Below, in pieces: positions 25 through 35,600 of a DNA stretch of 64,000 nt. The position numbers and the translations under genes were made by a program. Source of the DNA: Centroberyx gerrardi (lineage: Eukaryota > Chordata > Actinopteri > Beryciformes > Berycidae). The stretch covers positions 16,802,185 through 16,866,184 of the forward strand of contig NC_136004.1 in the NCBI RefSeq assembly GCF_048128805.1. Reading direction: 5' to 3'. Each line of letters starts with the position of its first letter. Within the stretch, counting starts at the first letter, position 1. The notes under the pieces are model-generated. The model worked only from the letters and a program-made list of their open reading frames with translations, ran no database searches and had not been told where the DNA came from.

Positions 25-479
<455 letters not shown>

Positions 480-3394: not shown

Positions 3395-6300
3395 ATGAGC
3401 AGTCCGCCGAGCCCTTCTCCCACACGATGGTTCAAGGCACTGCGAAGGTAAATGCACAGATGGGACATAATAATTTGATAGTGGGGTAATCTGAATTGGA
3501 TATTTTTTAAGCAAGCTTAGCGAGATAACGACTTTGACCTACAGTAACCTGTCACATGTGTGTGTTTAATCCATTCATGAAAAACTAAAATGAGATGCCT
3601 CTGTTGATGCTGGCCTTGGTCCAAATCTACACAATGGGTTGACATGGCAGTGTTAAAACCTCCTGGCCTTTAGTTGGAATAGAAACCCACGCTAGAGCTG
3701 ATTTGATTTTTGCTTTGTTGGTGTGCATCACCTGATTGGTTGGAATTATTAGGAATTTCACTATCCTCTCTGCTACTGGGGCTTTCCTCAACTGGTACTG
3801 TGACTAGGCTTAACTGCACACTAAATCTGTTCAGAAAGGCCAACACTATAGAAGTCCTGAATAGGGTAAACATGAGTGGAAAAGTAAGGGCATGTTATGC
3901 TTGCCAAAGGAACGGCCGGTTAACCTGCAGAAGGTATGATGTGATATGTTATGGATAGACTTGATATGTAAATGCCCTGTGGTGTTAACTGGCGACTTAA
4001 CTGTTATGTTGCAGGACCAGGCTGGGGGAGCCTTGCTTGAAGACGTATCCTCTGGAGTGTGTGGATCTGCTGAAGAGGGCTAGAGCCGCCTTCCAAGCTG
4101 GACGCACCGCTAAGGAAAGCTTCAGACTGGCTCAGCTGGAGGCCGTAGTGCGAATGCTGGTGGAACATGAGTGTGACTTTGTGGACGCTCTTGGAAGGGA
4201 CCTGCATAAGGTGTGGGGTGAAGCTGTTTGATCAGTTATCTGGAATATTTCTGTCTGCAGTGTTCATGTTAATGAAATAAGTTATTATATTTAAAACTGA
4301 CACTAAGACATAGTGGTTCAAATTGTTGGAACCACTATCCTCCAGAGGTTTTTAGCATTTGTGTCCGTATTCTCTCTTTTAAAATTTTTTTTTTTTTTTT
4401 TTTACCAGCCACGGTTCGAGACAGTTGTGTCAGAACTCATCCTTGTGAAGAACGAGGCTCTTCACGCCATCAACAACCTCAAAAAGTGGATGCAGCCACA
4501 GCGTGTGGAAAGGAACCTGGTGAGATGCATGTACTTGTAAACCTTTTTCACAGCCAACATCTTCATAAACATTATTTGGATTACTAGATTATTTGGATTA
4601 CAAAAATTTGAATTAAGTCATTCAACCTTTTGGAGAGAACATTCCGTCTCCCGGCTACAAAGCAATGCATTGTGCTTGGCCCGCCAAATCAGATTAAAAC
4701 TTCAGCTGCCTTTCCCTGTTTTTAAGATTAAACTGGGCTGATGGCGTTTCCCTTGTATTAGTCAGCTTGCACACTGATGAACTTGGCCCAGTTTGACCCA
4801 TGAGTGTCCCGTATCAGCTTGTGATCTAATGCTGAGCTTGTCTGATTGCTGCAGTCCACCACGTTAGATGAGTGTGTGGTGGTAAGTGAGCCGCTGGGCG
4901 TGGTGTTCATCATGGGGACCTGGTGTAGTCCTGTCCAGCTCTGTCTGGTGCCGCTGGTAGGAGCCATAGCAGCAGGTGCAGTAAAAACTTTTCACTCCTT
5001 CACATAGCATTGCTTTTTCCTCACCCAGGCTCACTGATAATTTGACAACCACTGATGCACTGTGTCCCCCCTCTGTAGGAAACTGTGCAGTCGTCAGCCC
5101 CTCTGAGCACACCTCTCACACAGCAGAGCTTCTCCACCGTCTCATCCCCTCATACCTGGACAATGTGAGTAGTGACAAGACAGCATTGCTCCACATAGCA
5201 AGATGGACCTTATTTGTCTCGAAGTCTCACAAAGATGGATTTCATCTATCATTTTTTGAGAGGTTTCTATTTGCTTGGTAAATAATTTGAAAGGAATCAG
5301 TGGCATTGGATTTTCATCCCGCTCATCAGGGGTAGTGACATAGTGAAATGATAAATGGAGAAATATGATTTTTGAGTGTTGCAGTTGGGACAAAACCAAC
5401 CTCGGTCATTACTGACTTAACAGTTGTAGGCTCCAGCAAAGAAGCTTCTGTGACTCACTGGTAAGAGTCTACTTAGGAGCAGGACACCTCTTGGTCTGTG
5501 TGCTTTATAAGACGGCACTTTTTCACAAAGACTCAGATGAGCAGGGCGACATATGATAGACCGTGAAACCTTTGTACACAGCCTTTTATGTGGCAATGTT
5601 GCGTCCATCAAATACACAAAGGCAAACATAGAGTGGCTTTGTCTTCAACAGGCCTTTGAGCTACTTGTCTGCTCACAGCCAATAAGCTGTGGGTCTGGAT
5701 ACTTAAGGACAATGGGTCTGGTCTGTGTCTAGTACAGACTACAGAAAGTAAAATGAAGTCACCAATCTCCCTTTTCATGTGGTATCCAATGTCTCCTAGG
5801 TGACTTAACAAGATTGAGCTCCAACTCCTCTTCCCTTTTGGAGTGTCCCTGGTTTAAGACATAATCTGTTAGATTTGATCAACCAACTGAAGAACAGATT
5901 TGACTAATAGAATAGCTGATTTTATATGTGCAAATTGCTTTCACCCCATCACCGTTTACAAATGAATAAAACAATTTAAAATGTTGTACAATCTGGTTTA
6001 TAATGGCACAGGTTAAAATGTTTTCTGAATGAACATTGCCATACTAGGCAACTTGTCAAGTTTAGGTTGCTCCAAGACGGCCACAAAAAGTGACACTGGA
6101 TTTGAATTCCAATCGTTATCCGTATTGAGGCTTTATTGGGACTAGATGTGATCAAATATTAGAGCGTGCATCCACCTTTTGTCACCCAAGACTCTAATGA
6201 CTGATCAGTTGGCTAATTGGATATCATGGTGCAACTCTATTATGTACATTGATTGTTGACAGTGTGATATAAGGACACATTATGCCAAACTGAAAAATTG

Positions 6301-7681
6301 TAATCATCTGATCTAAAATTCTTGTTTTCTTCAAGGAATGCTTCCATGTGATACTTGCAGGCACAAATGACTTGGCTGAAGTAGTGGAACTCAAATTTGA
6401 TCATGTCTTCTTTATAGGTAAAGATGAAATGCACTCAGGTTCAAAATTTGTTTGTTTCTGAATCGTTCTTAATGTGTTAAGTGTGACTATCAATCCCCAG
6501 GAAGCAGGGAAGAGGGAAGCAGAGTGGCTCAGGCAGCAGCTCGCACGCTCACACCTGTCACCCTGATTTTGGGTGGCAAGAACCCATGTTATGTGGACCA
6601 GCAGTGTGACATCACCACTACGGCGCAGCGCATTGCCTGGGCACGTTTCCACAATGCTGGACAAAGTCTGGTGGCTCCCGACTACATCCTGTGCCATGTG
6701 GATGTCAAAGCCCAGCTGGTCCAGGCCCTGAAGTGCTGCCTGATGCAGTTCTATGGTTTTGATCCCCGAGAGTCCCAGAGTTTTGGGCGCATGGTTAATG
6801 TGGAGATCTTCAACCATACTAAAGACATGCTGTGGAGGTCTGGCAAGGTGGCTGTGGGCGGGCAAGTGATTGAAGCGGAGAAATATATTGGTAAGAGTCA
6901 TCTATTTGGGATTCTTTTAAATGCACCCAACAGTATAATATGCAATGCATTTGATGCTGTTGTACACATTTTATTTTTCTGTCTGAAGCCCCAACAATTC
7001 TGACCGAGGTGGTGGAATCGGACCCCATCATGCAACATGAAGTTTTTGGCCCGGTTCTTCCAATTCTGACCATAAACAACGTGGATGAGGCAATTGCCTT
7101 CATTAATAAGCAAGAGAAACCTCTCTGTGTGTATGCTTATTCCAGCAACAGCAAGGTAAAAGGCAGAAATGAATGTTATATATTCAGTATTCATTGTACA
7201 GGCCTTGGGCAGCCAATATGTATTGTATTTATGCATTCACCTTCTTGACAACGCAGGTCATCTCAAGGCTAATGAGTGAGACCTCTAGTGGAAGCTTTTG
7301 CTCCAATGACAGCATCCTGCAGAGTCTGATGGTGGTTCTGCCTTTTGGTGGAGTTGGTAAGTCAGTGGCATGCAAGTGTCAGAACTGAGAAATAGGACTA
7401 CAGATTGTGCCAAACATAGTGGTGGAATAATACTGCCAGGAATATATATATCAACTCTCCCAACACCTTTTAACTTGACAGGTGCCAGTGGAATGGGTTC
7501 CTACCATGGGCGCTGCAGCTTTGATACCTTCTCTCACAGGAAATCATGCCTGCTAAGAGGCACGCGGTTTGAGTGTGTCACCTATCTGCGTTACCCACCC
7601 TATGAAGACCGCAATCTGTCTCTAATGACATGGGCCAGTACTCTCTCCCAGAAGAGCCAGGGCTGGTGCCAGATCCTGTGA
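3395..7681 (+). CDS. ALDH3-family (ALDH3B-like) protein lacking catalytic residues; probable pseudoenzyme
   Basis: Ten exons: 3395-3447, 4015-4210, 4409-4519, 4855-4975, 5079-5164, 6336-6417, 6501-6890, 6989-7155, 7257-7356, 7482-7681. All have GT/AG introns and consistent phase, giving 501 aa against about 468 for human ALDH3B1; most of the excess is an N-terminal extension rich in Ser and Pro. The start ATG has A at -3 and is the first in frame with the exon 2 coding sequence. Fold motifs are kept: LVPLVGAIAAGNC, LGGKNPCYVD, APDYILC, HEVFGP (Glu364) and PFGGVGASGMG. The chemistry is not. The PWNYP Asn is Cys144 (TWCSP), the KPSE Lys is Ser167, the LELGG Glu is Ile239 and the GQTC Cys is Leu273 (GQSL). 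The protein ends CQIL, a CaaX box whose final Leu suggests geranylgeranylation and membrane attachment, as in some ALDH3B members. Oxidation of aldehydes by the normal mechanism is not expected; a binding or scaffold role is inference. Exact orthology within ALDH3 is not settled. Confidence 0.9.
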
Positions 7682-8232
7682 CTGTGTGGGAGGGTGATGA
7701 CAGAGCCATGTGGGAAGAAAGCTGAACAAGCAGCCCCGACACTAAAATTTACTGTTAGTGTAATAAAAATAGATGGGAATAAAATCCATTGGCATACAGC
7801 CATATCTAACCGAGGGAGATCATTATCCATTCTAGTGATTAGTGATTCTGTAGTATTTTCAGTGTGGGATCACAATTATGCCATCAAGAATAACAAGGGT
7901 TGATCTCAATTATTTACAGCTTCTCTGGGAAAGTACTATCTGACTGTACATCAACATATCAACTGTATGTTAAATATAGTTGGTAAAGCAAAAATAAATG
8001 ACTTAATACCACTGTTTTTGATATACAAATGTATTGACTGATTGTTATTGACATTCAAGTTTGTTGTGCTGAATATGGCCCCCATCCTCACATTATACTA
8101 GGAAACAAGTTGCATTAGAAAACATGATTTGGACCTGTAGAATTATCTTTAATATATTTACAAGTGCAGTCTTTATATAGTTATCCCATTAACAGATGAG
8201 GCTTCTGTTTTCATCCTCGCACAAGAATCTGG
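7682..8232. other. Convergent 3' region between the ALDH3-like gene and mmab
   Basis: The two genes end tail to tail with 551 bases between stop codons. AATAAA hexamers for the + strand gene lie at 7762-7767, 7778-7783 and 7993-7998. On the - strand a variant ATTAAA lies at 8148-8153, which would end mmab about 85 bases after its stop. If the most distal + strand signal is used, the two transcripts stop within about 150 bases of each other. No other gene is seen here. Confidence 0.6.
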
Positions 8233-9863
8233 TTATTGAGGTCTTGTGTAGATTTTCTCTTCATTGCCTTCTTTCATGGCTGCATATCTGGCCACAGTGA
8301 ACAGGTAGTCGCTCAGTCTGAGGGAAAATGTTAGGACATTTATCAGATGGGGAAAATTGAAATCATGTAAACCATGTTACCATATTCATTATCAAATATG
8401 CGCCGTACTGACCTGTTCAAAAATTTTGCAACATCTGGATCTGCTTCCCCCGAGCGCACAATAGGAGCAACACTGAAACAAGAGCAGAGACCTGTCAACC
8501 AGTGGTGCCAGTGAATCAAGACAATTAGGTCATTTTGAGATTTTGAGGCATTCAAGATGTTACAAGATGTTTAAACTGACCTGCGCTCTGCTCTGCGACA
8601 GATTGTCCGAGCTACGTGCAAAGCAGCACTACTTTTTCCTCCCGACTGCAAGACATAATACATAAATATTACTGCATCATGAAAGACTGGGATCTCACAG
8701 CAACTCCATGTCTCATTCAAGTGTGAATGGGCTTACAGGCAATATGAAGTTGGTCAGTGGTGGGAGTTCTGCTGTAAATGTATCAATCCAGCTTTCCAGG
8801 TCTGCAACTGGTTGAGGTGTAAATTTGGTTTTCTCTTAAAAAAACAAACAAAAAGTTAGTCAATAGATACTAGACCACACAATCAAGAGACAAATCCATT
8901 TCTATTGATATGCTCCACAGCATTAAACTAAAATAAATTACTTATGTGACTTTCTCTTGCAGATGACCGAGGGGTGGCAATATTGGAGCCCACATCTTGT
9001 AAAACACATTGTATCTATGGAATGAAAAGTGGAATTAATATGGAAAATAAGCCTGATTGAAATTGTCAGCACTGAAGGAGGCTAAAGAATACAAGCTGTA
9101 AGTCAAACCTTGTCCAGCTGATATGTGAATGTATGACCTTTGTCGAGGCAAAACTCTCTGGCCAAGCTGTAATGTACAATTCAACATGGTCAGTTTGGTC
9201 AGGCAGACTACAGAACTAAAGTTAAAACAGACTGTGACATGTGAGTAGTACTGAAAGATACCCTATAGCTGATGACAATTCATCTGTAGTTCCTAATGCT
9301 TCAAAAACATGATCTTCCTTTGGCCTCCTTTCTCCTGTGAATGTGCTCGAGAAACCTTTTAAAGACAAGAGCAAAAATCAACTAAACTTTTGAAAGGTCA
9401 ATACAGTGGAACGTGATTTTACAGTGATACCCAAGTTACACACACCAACCTTTGTCTCCAGTTTTGGTGTATATTTTGGGGACCCTGCTGTCTCCTTCAG
9501 TGGCATAACTGTTAGGGAATAAGCAAAAAATAACTTGCTAAGTACAATTCCAGAGGATGTTTTCAGTAGGATTAACAGTTAAGGCTCTAACTCAAGATAT
9601 GTCTTTACTAAAATGTATTTATTCCTGTAGCCTACCCTCCTGTATAGCATGTTACCCAGTAGTCTGGTACATTACATAGCTAACCTTAGCTACCTGAATA
9701 ACGTTAGGCTGTCAACTATTTGCTAATACAGTTGACAGACGACAGGGATGCACAACTACCTTCTCTCTGAGCCAAATGTTTTCTTTGTCCACTGCACGTT
9801 TAGACACCTGCCTGTCCTTACAAAACAACGCAAATGAGAGGGTTTAAAAATGACCGTAGCCAT
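8233..9863 (-). CDS. mmab: Cob(I)yrinic acid a,c-diamide adenosyltransferase, mitochondrial
   Basis: Complete gene on the minus strand in nine exons, in transcript order 9863-9760, 9508-9450, 9355-9262, 9166-9109, 9014-8942, 8834-8737, 8645-8581, 8472-8413 and 8317-8233. Lengths sum to 696 nt, giving 231 aa, with GT/AG introns and matching phases. It transfers adenosine from ATP to cob(I)alamin, making the cofactor of methylmalonyl-CoA mutase in the mitochondrial matrix. The first 34 residues are rich in Arg and Lys with no acidic residue before Glu33, as for a mitochondrial presequence. The ATP-binding segment [20 protein letters not shown], the [12 protein letters not shown] segment, the [19 protein letters not shown] helix with Arg-Arg-Ala-Glu, and [19 protein letters not shown] are all present. 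Start: ATG at 9863-9861, A at -3 and G at +4, a strong context. It is divergently paired with mvk. Nothing is broken. Confidence 0.96.
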
Positions 9864-10720: not shown

Positions 10721-13700
10721 TAAAGTTTGCATCAATCTCCCAAACATTGACACATTCCTCTGCTGGGACCTGTCTGAACTGAAGCAGCTTATTCCTGATT
10801 CCTGTGGTAAGTGATGGTACAGGGTTGGGGACTGTTAGGACCTATAATATATTTTAGTGAAGTTAAAAGGATGCAAAACCCCATAGTACTTAAAGGAGAA
10901 CAGCATTCAAATGTTTTTCCATTGTCTCAAACAGTGCAATTTGTATTAATGAACGTTCACTGCTGTCCCCTATAGCCAGAAATAAGAGATAAGAGTTTGT
11001 CCACTTCTAAATCTGTGATATCACATCATTGTCCAGCATCACTGGAAAAGGTGACTGTGAGAGCTGTGAGTTTTTGAAGATATAAGTACCTTTTCTGGAT
11101 CAGATTAGTTATCAATGCCTGAAAATGCTCCTCATCATTTGGGTGGTAAAGTCAGTCTTCCATTTACTGTCGAGCAAAGACAGAGAGAGCACCTTCAGTT
11201 TGTATATCGTTATGGTATCACACTGTCTTTCGTTTGTGGCTTCCTTTTTTAAAAATCATACATGTATCAAATATGAAATATGAAATGAAACATGGATAAA
11301 ACAGGTGGGGCAGATCAAACTATGTCACAAAACAGTTGTATGATCATTGCTGTGTTTTGTCATGTCTTTCTAAAGGTAAGAGGGAGGAGGCAAAACGTCT
11401 GGATGCTGAACTTGTCAGGAGACTGCGTGAATTTGTTGGTGTAACCAATGGAAACTTGGACACTCGTAACATGGCCACCTTAGCCTTCCTCTACATCTAC
11501 CTCTCTCTGTTTGGATCAGGGTGAGTTAGTGGTATTCCAGTTGATACAGCAGCTGTCTGATATGTCGGGGCTCTAATACATATTCCTTTTCTCCGCAATT
11601 TTGATATGATTAATAATTTTTTCATTTTATTTTTTAATCTAATGTGCTCAGAGATGGCCACAAATACAAAATCATATCACAGGATATTTTTGCTACACCA
11701 GTTCAACACTTGACATCAGTATATATTGTACACTAGTTAGTTTTAAATTCTTTTCACAGTAGTTGGACATAGAAGCAACGTTATACAATCACACTGATAA
11801 AATACAGTGATTAAAAAACACAAAGAGAAACAAATTATTGATTTGCACAGACAAAATAAAAAACCAAGGGGAAAAGTCGAGCTGACATGCAAAGACACAG
11901 CTGAGAAGGATAACAGAATCTAAATGACAACAAATCCTAACATGGTGGGAAAGAAGTTCTACTTAAAATATAAAAATGATTGATGATGATCAAATGAATT
12001 ACATCTGACCTTACAAGGAACAAAGTAATATTTGTTGCATCTACTGTCAGGGCGCTGTGGCATTGACCCTTACACGACTTACTATTGTTTGCTTATAATG
12101 TTGGCAATCTAGGAATTTAAGCTTATTCTTCTGTTGCGCTCATTGTAAGTTGCTCTGTATCAACTAAATGCCTAAAATGTTAATGTAGAAGGTGCTAGCA
12201 GAATACAAGAAAGGTCAAAGGTACTGTAGGTATTGTAACTCTCTGTTGTCCTGGAGGTTTATTAAACTGGTGCCTGCCTTGAAACTGTCATGCAATCACA
12301 GCTCAAGTGATCTAGTTCTTATATCTTTACTGTTTGACAAACTGAGACAATGAAGAATCACAGATTGGTCAATCTCTTTTAAAGATCTTTTGGAAGTAAA
12401 ACTTGTTTTATCTGGGAAAATTTACTCAGTATGGGTGTAGGTGAGAAGAGGGATCAGTCCTGGACCCTTTTCACTAAATCTGAAAGATCTGCCCTGCTTG
12501 AAATGAAGATGGTGAAAAGAGACAGACAGAGAGACAGGATGTTAGTTTTGGAGACTCCAGCATCTGGGAACAGGGAAGATGCTCAGGAACATTAGAGCTG
12601 CAGGTTGTGTGGAGGCTTAATCGGGGCTGACACGGTGCTGGCGTGTCTGAGAGAGGTGATGGGTTCTGACAGGATGGCCACTAATGAGAGTCTGGCACTG
12701 GGCCACACTGCAGCCTTTAACAAGTCTGGATGTGTTTTTCCCTTGGGAGAAGAGCCGGACAATTAGTTTAGAGTATCCTCCTGTCTGCCCAAAAGCAGCT
12801 TCTCTGACAGACATTGACAGCAGAGCGGAGTTTCTGTTGCACATATACACACTTTGCTCCTCCTCGTAAAAATGATTTACAAGTTTGATCGTGATTGTAG
12901 AAAATGGAGTAATTCTTGATTTAATTTTCTAAAAAGTAACAAAAAAGGCAGTGTTAATGAGGAAAAAAGTCCTTTATTTTCTATTATAAATAGTAATGCT
13001 TTTAGGCTTTGCGGTTATTCTCATTTTTGGGATGCAGTTACAAATTCCTATGGTCAGCAGTGTGATTACTCATATATTTTTACTGTCAAAAACAACCTGT
13101 TATTACAGCAGTATATACTATAATGCAATATTATGGGGAAAAAAAACTTCCAGCTTTATATTTTTTTGTTTTGTTTTTGTTTTCCTAAGCGATTTGCCCA
13201 GCCTGACGATGTGTGTGTGGTCAGAGCTGCCGACTGGAGCGGGACTGGGCTCTAGCGCTGCCTTCTCCGTGTGCCTCGCTGCCGGTCTGCTCTCCGCAAG
13301 TGGAGCCATTTCCACTCCTCTCAAGGAGTGGGATAACACCGCCAGGTAATGACATTACATTAAGAGCCACTCTGTCATGAGCTGTGTATGCCGGCTGCGT
13401 AGAGTAGACCACCGTCGTGCATGGACAGAATAAGAAGGCTGGCCTAATGAATACGCTCTTAAAAGGGCACTTCACTGAAAAACAAAGATGATTTAATATA
13501 CATGTTATCTCACACGCATCCCATAAATTGTAAACAGTCTTGCACAAATTTCTTTGGTTTGAGAGTAATGGAGAATTAATGTGTTTGAATTGCCCCATTA
13601 TAATTCTCAGGTTAGGAAGTTAATATATAAGTAAGATAAGATCACACCAAAGACACAAATTAACTTTCAGATATATTGTGCCTGGAATATTCATTTACTG

Positions 13701-16429
13701 AACATGCCATGTTCCTCCCAGATGTGTTTGGTCAGGAGTTGGTGAGGTAGTTAAGTTGGTAGTGGGGCAGAAAGGGTCTGTAGGCCCACTGAAAGTTACA
13801 CTGCTCAACGCTGTGTGATTACAGGTGGTGTCAGGAGGATATGGAGCTTATCAACAGTTGGGCTTTCCAAGGAGAGATGATCATCCATGGTAATCCTTCA
13901 GGGGTGGACAACGCTGTCGGGACATGGGGTAAGGCCGGAAATGATCTACCATATGGTACAGATTATATTAAATTATACTCCGCTGTGCCTCCACAGACAC
14001 ACAGTGCACACTTCAAGGCAAGCATCTGGGCATTGTAATATCATTGCTTATAATCATTTGATGATTATCTGTTTAATGATGTTGATTTCCCTTCATGCAG
14101 GTGGCATACTGAGATTCTTGTCTGGGAAGATAATACCATTGAGCAGGTACTGTAAAGTGTTTGAGGGGCACATTTTTATTCCATTTCAATTAAAATGATG
14201 AACACACTAATAAAGAGAAACAATCTTGGTATAATTGTTTTTTTACCAAAACAATATAAATGTTGTCAGGATAAGATTATTGCATTAATGGAGCACCTGA
14301 ATGTTACTGCACTATAAACTCTAATCTGTCTGTTTTTTACTTCCAGGGTGCCACTGTTAAGAATCCTCCTCACTAACACCAAAGTACCACGTAGCACCAA
14401 GGTACTTGTTGCCGGGGTGAAGGACAAAATTAATAAGGTACTAAATGGTTACTTCCTCCCCCGTGTGTTACTTCCCGACACTGTAATTAATGTAATCGGC
14501 AGTGCTTTTGCATGGCAGATACTCTGGGGCCTGGCGTTGAGTGCCTTCATAAAATATTGAAATTAAACTCTTAGGCAGCACCCTGTGTGCTGTTGCCTTG
14601 GTGACAGCAGCAGGTGTGCAGATTTCTGCCTCAGACATAGATGGGCCTGGTTGGTGTTGTGGCAGTGTTGTGATCAGGATAGAGCAAAATCTAAGCCAAA
14701 CCTGTCATTTTATATTCCATATTTGTATACAGTTTATTAGTCATAAAGCAGGTATTGCCAACTTTTAACACATGTGAACACTTGTTGCTTAGCACATACA
14801 GTTTACTTGCAGCAAATACATTATGGAGGCATTGTGCTGTGCAGGAGCAAGGGGGGAAGTTGTTGATTCACTATTGTTTTCTTCCTTTCCCATCTCTAGT
14901 TTCCCTCTATCATGAACCCTGTGCTCGATTCAGTTGATGCGGTTTCCTGCACTTGTGAGAAAATCCTCGCAGAGATGACCAGTCAGCCAATCACAGGAGA
15001 GCACTACAATGTTCTAGAGGTACAAAACACGAGTAGATTGTGTGAAGCACTGTGCATTATAAACAAGTGTGTTAGAGGTCTTAAACCCAGAAACTCTTGT
15101 TCCTATCCACTCGACTGATTCCTCCCTAAGAGGCACAGGTGGTGATTACAGCTTGTGTCATGTCACCCGTAGGAACTTATTGACATCAACCAGCACCATC
15201 TGAACGTGATGGGTGTGGGACACCCTGCCCTGGACACGCTGTGCCGGGTCACCCTGGCCAGAGGGCTCCACAGCAAGCTAACAGGCGCTGGAGGAGGGGG
15301 GTGTGGCATAACGCTTCTGAGACCTGGTATTGTAGGCCTGTTCATTTCTACTGAAATTCACTTATTACTCTTAAACTGGCAATTTATCCTACTGTGCATG
15401 TCATTTTAGATTTTTTTTATCAGGAGAAAAACGGTAAAGTCAAGGGTCTATGTCTTTTTTTTTCAAAGAAAAGTAGTTATGTTATGTTATACAAGATATG
15501 TAGTCATCACATCACATCTCAACTCAAGATAATACGCATCATTTAATTTAGTCTCACATGCTGATGAGACTATATTACATCCTCAAATGGATTTATCTCA
15601 TACTGAATTCAATTTGATGAGGACAAGTGAGCCAAACTGTCAGGCTCCTACTGACAACAAATGTTATATTTCCCTCTCTCTTCCTTTCTGAAAAAGCCAT
15701 TTGAGTGGCAGGATATGATGAGAAGCCAGCACAAGAGAGTCCTTTGGTGTGTGGGTACTGTGCAATTGGTTATGAGTAAACTTTTTATCATCCTCTCTTT
15801 GACAAAACAAACAAGCAAAGAACCTGTGAATTCAGTCTTTGTTTATGCCTGCAGCCCTCAGCACACTGAATTTTAATAAGTTTAAAACCCCCTAAATAGA
15901 TTTCCAAATGTTGATTTGTTTTGTTAGCAAGTGTTTCTATCTTTGTGAATTGCAGCTGTTTTCAGAAAGATCCCCCAGTGTCTGCCTCCTAAAACGCTGT
16001 CTGAGAGTCTTGACGGTAAAGCTCTTTGAGTTAAGGAAGCAAGCGCAGAGTGAAGTGACTTGGCCGTTATTTTACCATTCTGTTAAAAGCTTCTCTTGCA
16101 TCTGAAGTCGTAAATTTTCAGGATGATTTATGGTTCGCGTTAGCATTGCTCTGCAGCTGTGTCCTCCCTGTCCAGCTGAAGTGCTAAGCCCCTTCCTGGG
16201 TTTCGGAGCATTTCCCTTGCTCCGCACAGCAGGGAACTACCAGATGTTTATTTTTGTTCATCTGGGGGATTACTGACTTAACAGATCGGGGTGTTTGTTT
16301 GGCTCCAGTTGTGGCACCGCTGGCACATGCCCTTCTGCTGTTAGCGGCAGGTTCACTTCTCACATCTGACACCTGACTCTGAAAGCACCACTATAGAGAC
16401 ATTTGCACTGAATTTCGATCATTACATAC

Positions 16430-32090: not shown

Positions 32091-32440
32091 TTGACGGCTC
32101 TAGCAGTGTTAGTGCCCTACTTTACCCCCGGAGACACCAGTCATCAATCACTCATCTCTTAAGAAGAAAATCAACTGATTCCAATCAGATACCAATTTAG
32201 CTTCTTTTTTTTTTTCACAAAAAATGTTGGCTTTGATATGATCCCACACTGATACATTGTGGTAAATGGTTCTAAATGTCAACTTTGATTTTATTTTTTT
32301 ATTTTTTTAATCCTTTTTTTCTTTCCATAGGTGCATAGTTTTCATTAAATTAGAAAATAATATTTAGCAGCTATGTCTGAAGGATTCAGTTTAGTGGCCT
32401 AGAATAGCCACTAAATTGCAAATAACTATCGTATGTGCAG

Positions 32441-32473
<33 letters not shown>

Positions 32474-32486
32474 GTCTATCTGTCTA

Positions 32487-32529
<43 letters not shown>

Positions 32530-32564
32530 GCCTGTCTGTCTGTCTGTCTGTCTGTCTGTCTGCC

Positions 32565-32597
<33 letters not shown>

Positions 32598-32599
32598 GC

Positions 32600-32635
<36 letters not shown>
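32441..32635 (+). repeat. (TATC)n/(TGTC)n compound tetranucleotide array, 195 bp
   Basis: The array begins as TATC, passes through mixed TATC/TGTC and becomes nearly pure TGTC, ending with TATC again. Single T-to-C changes making CCTG units begin at 32531, 32563 and 32599, spaced 32 and 36 bases. Because the unit is four bases long, three frames stay open and give Cys-Leu-Ser-Val repeats; these are not genes. Confidence 0.98.
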
Positions 32636-35600
32636 TGGGTGACATATATATGTTGCGCAAGAGTGAAATCAAAACTTCACATTAAGGTTAAAATGTGAAG
32701 AATTGAATAATACTAATTGCTTGTGCACAAAGGGCCACACCTTGTGTCAGTGAAGGCTAACTGGGGAATAGTGATGGGAGTCAGCCTTCCTTCTATGCGC
32801 TACAGAGCAGATGAACACAGAATACTGTTACAGGAGGCAGCCTGCTCCTCAGGCTACGCTCAGATCCCCCCCACCCCCCTCAGCAAAACTTCCACATTTT
32901 AATCCAATAGTGTGCATAGAGCTCAGGGAAATGATATTTAGGAGACAATGAGTGCCCTGCAGAGACAAAGAAGGGAGGGGGGATTAGAGTGTGTCTCTGG
33001 AGTGGCTTTGACTCCTCCACTGATGGAGAGTAATTAAAGCAGCCTACTGTGTTGTCGATGTAGCTAAAGGGGGATAATAATGAAACATCACAGCTCATAG
33101 AGCTTGGGCCTGCAGCACCTTACTTGAGCCTAAAGCCGTGATTAGGAGCACAGTCACCATGTAGGTTGTTCCTAGACATAGTACTTTGTATCCTAACACA
33201 CACTAATAAACGACTGTTTTCACATTTAGGTTGATAAGTTAGGTATGTTCGGTATTTTTTCAAATTAACAATTAGAAATGTATTGAATCACAGTAAATCA
33301 CTTGGGAATGTAAGAAATGATCACAAGTTCCTGTTCTCTGCTATATTTTCATGAAATGTAACATTTTTGATCGAAGATATATGAGGCAAAAGTGCAGACT
33401 GTCAACTATGGCCCCTCCAATTTCAACTAAGCTGAGTAAGTACTGGGACAAATTAACTTTAACTAAATCCAAGTTATCTAAATTCATTGTTTCCTCACAG
33501 GCCAATTACACATAACAACTGTGTAAAGTCTGTGACCCATCAACATTGCCAGACTCTTGTTATCTTCCTTTAAGATAATCTGGCAAGCCCTAAATGTCGC
33601 CTCTTGCGTCTTGATCCATCTCAGTGGGTTTTCAGCTAAGGTTAGGTACTGTTCGAGACAGCATGGAAAACAGTGGATGACTGACTTGTACATAACGTCC
33701 AGACTCTGAGCTGTGGTATCGGCCAAAAACCTGCGCTCTCCTGTCTGCTTTCCTCAGGTTACATTGCGTCACTTCAACTGTGGGACTTCCAAATTCCCAC
33801 CGAACCCCTTAGGAAAATTAACCATCAGGAACCTGACTGCTGAAGTGACCCTCTGTAACTTAAAGCATATTGGTAGAGGAGTAATATGTTACACTTTCAC
33901 TACACTAACCCAGGGTCTGGACACTGAGTCAAGGAGAGAGTCATCCATTTGCTGTACAATATTATACTAAGGTCTACATTTTAGCAAAGTATTTGAAAGG
34001 AAGAATCTGGTTGTATTCATTGCTTACATTGGATGAAACAGTTAGGTAAGCAAACATTAACTTCACATGGCATGAACTTACTTTGAGTTATTTTTCCTAA
34101 TACTAATAAGAGATGTGCTTCAATGATTCCCAAGGCTATATAGAGTCATTGCAGCTACAAAGAACATGGCATAGATAAATATACACTAAAATAGAAAAAT
34201 CAGTCAGAGAATGGTCTCAGAATGAGGTGAAACTGAAATGCATGGTTTGATTCTGTTAGTTAACAATCACCAGTAAAAACTAGGTACAGCTAATGCTAAA
34301 TGAATAGGAACCATAGGCAGCCACACTGGTTTTCTACAGTGAATCATGGTTAGATTACCTTCAATTGACTGAAATCAACAACACTTTGTTTCATTCTAAA
34401 TGAGGATGATTTTGCCCAAAATTTGAAAAATTGCTATCCACATGACTCAAATTTATTCAGCAGTAGTGGTTTGCTGTTTTGGCTAATCTCAGAGAACCAC
34501 ATATTCCATTTTCATCTGGATCAAAGATGACTCATTAACCCTCACACTTAATAACCATCAGAATATCGTATGAAGAAGACAATTACCTCTAACATGTAAG
34601 CAAGAAATACTCACATCAGTAGCTAGCTATACATAAATCTTTAAATTCAAAATATAAATAAACAAGCAGCAAAAAGAACAGATATCCTTACAGTATTCTC
34701 CTCCATTATTTTTGACACTGAATCTACATCACATAGAGCCTAATAATGTAAAGCGTGGAAAATTATGCATTCGTTTTTGAGAGAAAGCAGATATTCATTA
34801 CAACAGGGTTGTCCTTAATTAGCATGTTTAATTTTGGACATTGTTTCCCATTTGTTCCATGACAATACTTTTTGTATTGTATCATTAATTCACATTAGCT
34901 TGTGTCTTTCTCCCTACTGCATTCCCCCCTTGTTTATCATTAGAAAACAATTTTTGAGGTTTAAAGTAAAGGGTTAAATAGAGCATCTGAGGAGTAAGAG
35001 ACCTGTTTATCATTAATGGCTCATTGTTTCCTCTGTCTGTATAAAACACCATCATTAGAAGATGAAGACACACTTGTTTGCACATAAATGTTCCTTAAAG
35101 GCATCTATATGAATGACAGATTCCACTGAAAGACGGGGACTCAGACAGATTTTGCTCAATCAAAGCCTTGGAATAATTCAATTTGGTTGTACAGTTACTG
35201 GCACATGGTTAAAAGGAGAGTGGGAACGCGGATGAGAGACAATGGCAGGTTGCACACCGTCTATTTTTGTCAAGATCAACAGTTGCCTTCTCATCATGAG
35301 TGTGGTTTTGGAGCCGGTTCAGAGCGTAATAAAGCAGAGATCACAGCGACAGGAAGAAACAGCTGGGCACACAGCTCACTCTGCCCAGACACATGTGGAT
35401 AATGGATCATTTTCATTCCAACTCCCATGCGTTAGGGGGTATAGAGCAGGGATTGAGGAGTCAGTAGGTGTTCAATTAAGCATGGAGTGAATACATAATG
35501 AGCTAATAAGGCAGGAAAGAAATGTCCTAAATACGGTGGTATTTTGCACGCAGATCCCAAATGGTCGAGGGACTCAATCTATCTCAAAGCCTTACACCCT

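Follow-up and report, generated by a model that had tools for sequence, protein, structure and literature searches.

The window analysed here is a 64,000-nucleotide stretch of the Centroberyx gerrardi genome (contig NC_136004.1; G000:C8:16802185-16866184 in a genome of 779 Mb), and it carries on the forward strand, at 3395-7681, a gene of the aldehyde dehydrogenase 3 (ALDH3) family that very probably encodes a pseudoenzyme kept by selection. Joining its ten exons, with GT-AG at all nine introns and no frameshift, gives 1506 nt encoding 501 amino acids (aa) plus a stop codon, which confirmed the intact frame announced in an earlier reading of the sequence (the original prediction). When human ALDH3A2 was used as query in a splice-aware protein-to-genome aligner written for this analysis, the boundaries of exons 3-9 came out identical to those of the model, as did the donor of exon 2 and the acceptor of exon 10. 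The model of exon 1 and of the acceptor ahead of exon 2 rests on the open frame, on GT-AG splice signals and on an ATG that has A at -3; homology covered none of the first 34 residues, and exon 2 has no in-frame ATG ahead of the ALDH3 core.

3395-3447, forward strand: coding exon 1 (53 nt), N-terminal extension; ATG start, donor GTAAAT, in frame, no homology support
4015-4210, forward strand: coding exon 2 (196 nt); the human ALDH3A2 alignment gave the same donor independently
4409-4519, forward strand: coding exon 3 (111 nt); boundaries recovered with ALDH3A2, length equal to that in the ALDH3B-type paralogue C7 (see below)
4855-4975, forward strand: coding exon 4 (121 nt), holding N144C and Y145S; boundaries recovered with ALDH3A2
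5079-5164, forward strand: coding exon 5 (86 nt), holding K167S; boundaries recovered with ALDH3A2
6336-6417, forward strand: coding exon 6 (82 nt), holding T216I; boundaries recovered with ALDH3A2
6501-6890, forward strand: coding exon 7 (390 nt), holding E239I and C273L; boundaries recovered with ALDH3A2
6989-7155, forward strand: coding exon 8 (167 nt); boundaries recovered with ALDH3A2
7257-7356, forward strand: coding exon 9 (100 nt); boundaries recovered with ALDH3A2
7482-7681, forward strand: coding exon 10 (200 nt, stop codon TGA included); acceptor recovered with ALDH3A2
7762-7767, forward strand: AATAAA match to a poly(A) signal, with further matches at 7778 and 7993

The encoded protein belongs to the ALDH superfamily by its match to the Pfam ALDH profile PF00171 (222.5 bits, E-value 1.1e-65, residues 36-457), and its closest solved structures are ALDH3A1 (E-value 1.4e-135) and ALDH3A2 (E-value 4.7e-133). 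With this protein as query, at least four further ALDH3 genes were found in the same genome, one on C7 (G000:C7:5110955-5120807; hereafter C7), two in tandem on C6 and one on C11. The original prediction had reported four catalytic or cofactor residues as replaced, N144C, K167S, E239I and C273L, and all four codons lie exactly where it had placed them; Y145S and T216I, which it had not listed, are two further losses at invariant positions. All four paralogues keep Asn, Tyr, Lys, Thr, Glu and Cys at these six positions, and C7 is catalytically intact by its residues.

4924-4926, forward strand: TGT, oxyanion Asn to Cys144; Asn in 80/80 bacterial ALDH3s and 4/4 paralogues (codon AAC)
4927-4929, forward strand: AGT, invariant Tyr to Ser145; Tyr in 4/4 paralogues
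5096-5098, forward strand: AGC, cofactor-binding Lys to Ser167; Lys in 80/80 bacterial ALDH3s and 4/4 paralogues
6414-6416, forward strand: ATA, invariant Thr preceding the Rossmann glycine to Ile216; Thr in 4/4 paralogues
6566-6568, forward strand: ATT, general-base Glu to Ile239; at least 3 nt changes, Glu in 4/4 paralogues
6668-6670, forward strand: CTG, nucleophile Cys to Leu273; at least 3 nt changes, Cys in 4/4 paralogues

We take positions 145 and 216 to line the active and cofactor sites, also from their adjacency to N144 and to the Rossmann glycine. The other four sites align with Asn, Lys, Glu and Cys of ALDH3A1, numbered Asn 115, Lys 138, Glu 210 and Cys 244 in an excerpt of PMC6941052, where the roles of these residues in ALDH3 are described. 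At the residues by which a catalytic ALDH is recognised (Cys nucleophile, Glu base, Asn and cofactor Lys), the window protein has L273, I239, C144 and S167. It retains E364, F366 and both Rossmann glycines, G217 and G222. Sequencing error was rejected as the cause, because each of the four catalytic codons requires at least two nucleotide changes, ten in all; at least 10 of their 12 nucleotides have changed, and 11 of 12 relative to C7. A missed alternative exon was likewise rejected, since the window, when queried with human ALDH3A1, human ALDH3A2 and a provisional human ALDH3B1 sequence not taken from a database (the provisional ALDH3B1), yielded no such exon whose motifs are intact. Matches to these three in the window are the exons listed above and one 15-aa match at E-value 0.21, which we took for chance. 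No relative was found in a scan of viral contigs with exon 7.

The Rossmann loop at residues 217-223 (window 6417 and 6501-6520) reads GSREEGS, versus GSTGVGK in ALDH3A1. Its two acidic residues presumably lie near the expected positions of the cofactor phosphates, and the pair may possibly be one more sign of lost cofactor binding.

The background for judging these losses was the best 80 of 316 bacterial ALDH3 loci, all 80 of which were used and among which 57 alignment columns are invariant. The window protein keeps 50 of the 57, the losses being N144C, Y145S, K167S, T216I, E239I, C273L and the conservative F397Y. None of these seven is lost in the other ALDH3 genes of the same genome, which keep 56 (C7), 55, 55 and 53 columns; human and rat ALDH3A1 keep all 57, human ALDH3A2 and the 10pq chain 56 each, and the provisional ALDH3B1 keeps 55. 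When bacterial rows were left out one at a time as a control, a row lost at most four columns (four in 2/80 rows; mean 0.25). The chance that N, K, E and C would all fall among seven random losses in 57 columns is 8.9e-5. On an independent ALDH3 residue list, provided by a figure legend of PMC6941052, four of the five chemistry residues (Asn, Lys, Glu-210, Cys and Glu-334) are lost, versus one change, Ile to Val, among the fifteen others (Fisher p 0.0049); Gly-212, Pro-318 and Pro-341 (kept) and Pro-103 (aligned off any Pro) were left out of this comparison. By region, residues 161-238, part of the cofactor domain, share 34/78 identities with the provisional ALDH3B1 versus 48/78 for ALDH3A1 (Fisher p 0.037 without correction, six regions having been compared), and outside them the counts are 185/363 and 191/363. 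Such a pattern fits a protein that no longer uses the cofactor but has retained most of its fold.

The original prediction had also assigned the gene to ALDH3B, an assignment that holds by exon pattern, C-terminal tail and tree and falters on sequence identity. The tail is a CaaX box on which that prediction was silent:

7667-7678, forward strand: CaaX box C498-Q-I-L501, preceded by Trp486 and Trp497; C7 ends in CALM

Translated up to their first in-frame stop codon, none of the three ALDH3A-type genes ends in a CaaX box. Exon lengths of the window gene are 111-121-86-82-390-167-100, versus 111-121-86-82-393-167-100 in C7 and 232-86-209-118-142-167-100 in the three ALDH3A-type genes, a comparison that took in no outside 3B gene structures and in which the 3B label of C7 itself rests on the tree and its CaaX box. 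In the tree, for which 10 of the 80 bacterial rows served as outgroup, the window protein, C7 and the provisional ALDH3B1 form a clade separate from ALDH3A (support 97/93), and the window protein groups with C7 alone at 96/91 when the provisional row is omitted. The best tree pairs C7 with the provisional ALDH3B1 at 78/63, and neither alternative, window gene with C7 (approximately unbiased test, p-AU 0.313) or window gene with ALDH3B1 (p-AU 0.233), is rejected; the duplication that separated the window gene from C7 may have been fish-specific or older, either being compatible with the tree tests.

Identities of the window protein are 48% to human ALDH3A1, 46% to ALDH3A2, 46% to C7, 43% to each of the C6 proteins and 39.8% to the C11 protein. 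Under the ALDH nomenclature rule, as given in an excerpt of PMC10650815, at least 40% identity defines a family and at least 60% a subfamily. The window protein reaches the ALDH3 family threshold, the C11 comparison lying just below it, and misses that for ALDH3B, with 46% to C7 and 48% to the provisional ALDH3B1; C7 and the provisional ALDH3B1 share only 54% with each other. Residues that discriminate 3A from 3B were not decisive, 15 being 3B-like, 18 3A-like and 29 neither.

In the tandem ALDH3A-type pair on C6 (G000:C6:3252500-3261500 and 3262900-3271500, minus strand), the two proteins are near-identical in two blocks (NEINLAVEKLAEWAAPR, and YLDKDLYPVV to CEPCIQ) and divergent between and outside them, which looks like gene conversion between the copies.

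Selection was assessed with codon models on 460 codons shared by the five ALDH3 genes, all paralogues from one genome. The log-likelihood (lnL) was -6805.29 with a single ratio of non-synonymous to synonymous rates (omega) on all branches and -6799.85 with omega free on the window branch; with omega fixed on that branch it was -6801.30 at 0.05, -6803.98 at 0.1, -6814.41 at 0.3 and -6830.37 at 1.0. Neutrality of the whole branch (omega = 1) was therefore rejected, at a cost of 30.5 lnL units. In a model of constraint followed by neutral evolution, the terminal neutral stretch was fitted at 0.00, and forcing 0.1, 0.25 or 0.75 neutral substitutions per codon cost 2.1, 5.5 and 18 lnL units, respectively. 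Data simulated without a neutral period gave fitted values of 0 to 0.17 in ten runs, and those simulated with 0.75 neutral substitutions per codon gave 0.36 to 0.91 in 10/10 runs.

Two further quantities bear on the possibility of recent decay. At 0.75 neutral substitutions per codon, the probability is 8e-6 that at least 10 of the 12 catalytic nucleotides would have changed and 1.5e-6 that the frame would be stop-free; at 0.3 the corresponding values are 3e-9 and 0.005. If the catalytic codons drifted neutrally, catalysis must have been lost long before any neutral period that the data permit, and if positive selection drove the changes, the process would likewise not be decay. Recent decay was rejected on the ground that the four codons require at least 10 nucleotide changes. 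Throughout the stop-free 501-codon frame, the only gap relative to C7 outside the N-terminal extension is one codon, and within that extension lengths differ by 28 and 1 residues. G+C content at third codon positions (GC3) is 0.60 in the gene, above the 0.39 of its introns; GC3 of neighbouring genes, taken from six pieces, ranges from 0.35 to 0.90 (0.645 when pooled over 228 codons). With omega = 1 rejected, no neutral terminal stretch fitted, the residues kept in the paralogues and the frame free of stops, the earlier proposal of a selected pseudoenzyme as opposed to a decaying copy was supported.

Taken as a whole, the explanation we favour, with reasonable though not strong confidence, is an old ALDH3B-type pseudoenzyme under purifying selection that would be lipid-anchored and act as a partner or scaffold. 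Its parts differ in strength: the core, a selected ALDH3B-type pseudoenzyme, is highly probable from the gene and codon evidence, lipid anchoring is likely given the CaaX box, and the partner or scaffold role alongside an active ALDH3B is tentative. In mouse, a passage of PMC10619140 reports prenylation of ALDH3B2 and ALDH3B3 at a C-terminal CTLL, and part of PMC13314531 states that lipid-droplet localisation of ALDH3B2 requires geranylgeranylation and that a final Leu in the CaaX box predicts this lipid. By that rule, CQIL predicts geranylgeranylation of the window protein. The protein would then fold as an ALDH3-like dimer, be geranylgeranylated at Cys498 and be held on membranes or lipid droplets by the lipid anchor together with the two nearby tryptophans. 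Two C-terminal tryptophans are reportedly also involved in lipid-droplet localisation, to judge from the title of one study. There the protein may act by binding, without catalysis; its likeliest role would be that of a scaffold or partner subunit, serving active ALDH3B (C7) or other membrane proteins.

Several observations weigh against this explanation. Synonymous sites are saturated and the branch length under free omega ran to its upper bound (54.6), so that omega is bounded only from above; a C7 branch freed as well behaves alike (lnL -6792.86, omega 0.013), and this similarly low value indicates that the window gene is not alone in its saturation. The window branch also spans time before the catalytic loss, and a single omega is applied to all sites. 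A neutral stretch of 0.3 substitutions per codon was missed (fitted at 0.05 or below) in 2/10 simulations, and the codon test by itself thus has limited power against a short recent neutral period. No vertebrate row has a longer branch than the window gene (0.98 versus 0.65 for C7), and its protein has lost 21 of the 98 columns conserved at 95%, compared with 2 in human ALDH3A1, 6 in the 10pq chain and 6 in the provisional ALDH3B1, so constraint is partly relaxed in general besides the active-site loss. Conservation is also somewhat lower over residues 347-440 (52/94 versus 62/94). Eight of the 57 invariant columns sit in the stretches used to find the loci (GGK[NS]PCYV and IAW[GA][KR]F[MH]N), their invariance being partly by choice; the losses inside these two stretches number zero. 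Finally, the CaaX box of C7, CALM, ends in Met, predicting farnesyl, and with differing predicted lipids the two proteins need not co-localise and may sit on different membranes.

Among the rivals, neofunctionalisation survives best and is nevertheless unlikely: the pocket would have acquired new chemistry or would bind a small ligand such as an aldehyde or a lipid. The retained E364, F366, G217 and G222 speak for it, as does the thiol that N144C places at the oxyanion position, but the cofactor Lys, Thr216, Asn, Glu and Cys are all gone, residues 161-238 are the most diverged relative to the ALDH3A1-ALDH3B1 comparison, and no result here indicates a ligand. A separate reading, for which we would give very little, is that the Cys144 thiol, still in the tunnel beside the nucleophile site now taken by Leu273, marks an active site that was rebuilt and not simply erased. 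With cofactor binding weakened, the lipid-anchored protein would on this reading trap aldehydes reversibly at the membrane and, by sensing or carrying them, regulate or supply active ALDH3B without oxidation.

ALDHs have been recruited as crystallins, as in cephalopod omega-crystallin and corneal ALDH3A1, and the window protein could resemble these in using the ALDH fold for a non-catalytic role, as an abundant ALDH recruited to a structural, bulk function. This is improbable, in that the CaaX box suggests membrane attachment over a bulk soluble protein. The weakest rival, a decaying duplicated pseudogene with a frame open by chance, can draw on the vanished catalytic residues, the long branch, the 21 losses at the 95% level and the simulated neutral periods that escaped detection, but the cost of omega = 1, the absence of a fitted neutral piece and the 5.5 lnL units charged for 0.25 per codon, the minute probabilities even at 0.75 per codon, the GC3 excess over the introns and the 50 of 57 columns retained make it very improbable.

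Returning to the ALDH3B-type pseudoenzyme, its nearest relatives by kind are ALDH3B1 and ALDH3B2: it shares the exon lengths of C7 (390 for 393), a CaaX end and a clade, and differs in having all four named residues replaced and in an identity of 46% to C7 and 48% to the provisional ALDH3B1. ALDH16A1 is of the ALDH16 family and has tandem ALDH domains. It lacks the entire catalytic triad, as an excerpt of PMC10650815 puts it, and is thought to act via protein interactions (passages of PMC10650815 and PMC8160307). The window protein is like it as an ALDH pseudoenzyme, but ALDH16A1 belongs to another ALDH family, whereas the window protein has a single ALDH domain (Pfam), is closest to ALDH3 and ends in a CaaX box. 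Human ALDH3B2, according to a portion of PMC6941052, was once suspected to be a pseudogene and has a premature stop with highly conserved residues kept; it resembles the window gene as an ALDH3B copy under such suspicion and is its reverse in detail, the window gene combining an intact frame with loss of such residues. For zebrafish Aldh3b1, an excerpt of PMC13079744 reports that the active sites are conserved, consistent with an active ALDH3B existing beside the window gene.

No ALDH3B pseudoenzyme appeared among the matches listed in the open-access literature, outside which most subscription papers lie, and nothing there contradicts the original prediction that none had been described; ALDH3D1 had no match in that literature. 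The window protein would be a second, independent pseudo-ALDH besides ALDH16A1, within the lipid-anchored ALDH3B group, and a genome with a dead and a catalytically intact ALDH3B offers a natural pair for asking what the ALDH fold does without chemistry. Candidate roles are those of a scaffold, a partner subunit or an aldehyde sensor at membranes or lipid droplets. A caution for gene lists in fish toxicology is that fish genes called aldehyde dehydrogenase 3B on grounds of similarity may have no detoxifying activity.

The ALDH3 gene sits between genes read as UBE3B (upstream) and MMAB (downstream), with the following neighbours in the window:

357-476, forward strand: C-terminal 40 codons of a HECT ligase (Pfam HECT, E-value 2.8e-15), read as UBE3B, the name being a reading
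8236-8471, reverse strand: two exon pieces of a cobalamin adenosyltransferase (PF01923, E-value 1.7e-6 with the pieces joined), read as the end of MMAB, the name being a reading
13194-15328, forward strand: exon pieces of a GHMP kinase (PF00288 and PF08544 in two of three pieces, no Pfam match in the third), read as MVK (mevalonate kinase), the name being a reading

Upstream of the window (G000:C8:16793000-16802300), the minus strand encodes a BTB-domain protein (Pfam, E-value 2e-5) read as KCTD10. Further UBE3B exons were read by eye in the same stretch; the piece tried gave no Pfam match. The block resembles human 12q24, where we take the order to be KCTD10-UBE3B-MMAB-MVK with no ALDH gene between. 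Elsewhere in the window, 32415-32695 is an expanded simple repeat, a low-complexity stretch for which at least two of the forward frames read SVCLSVCLSVCL.

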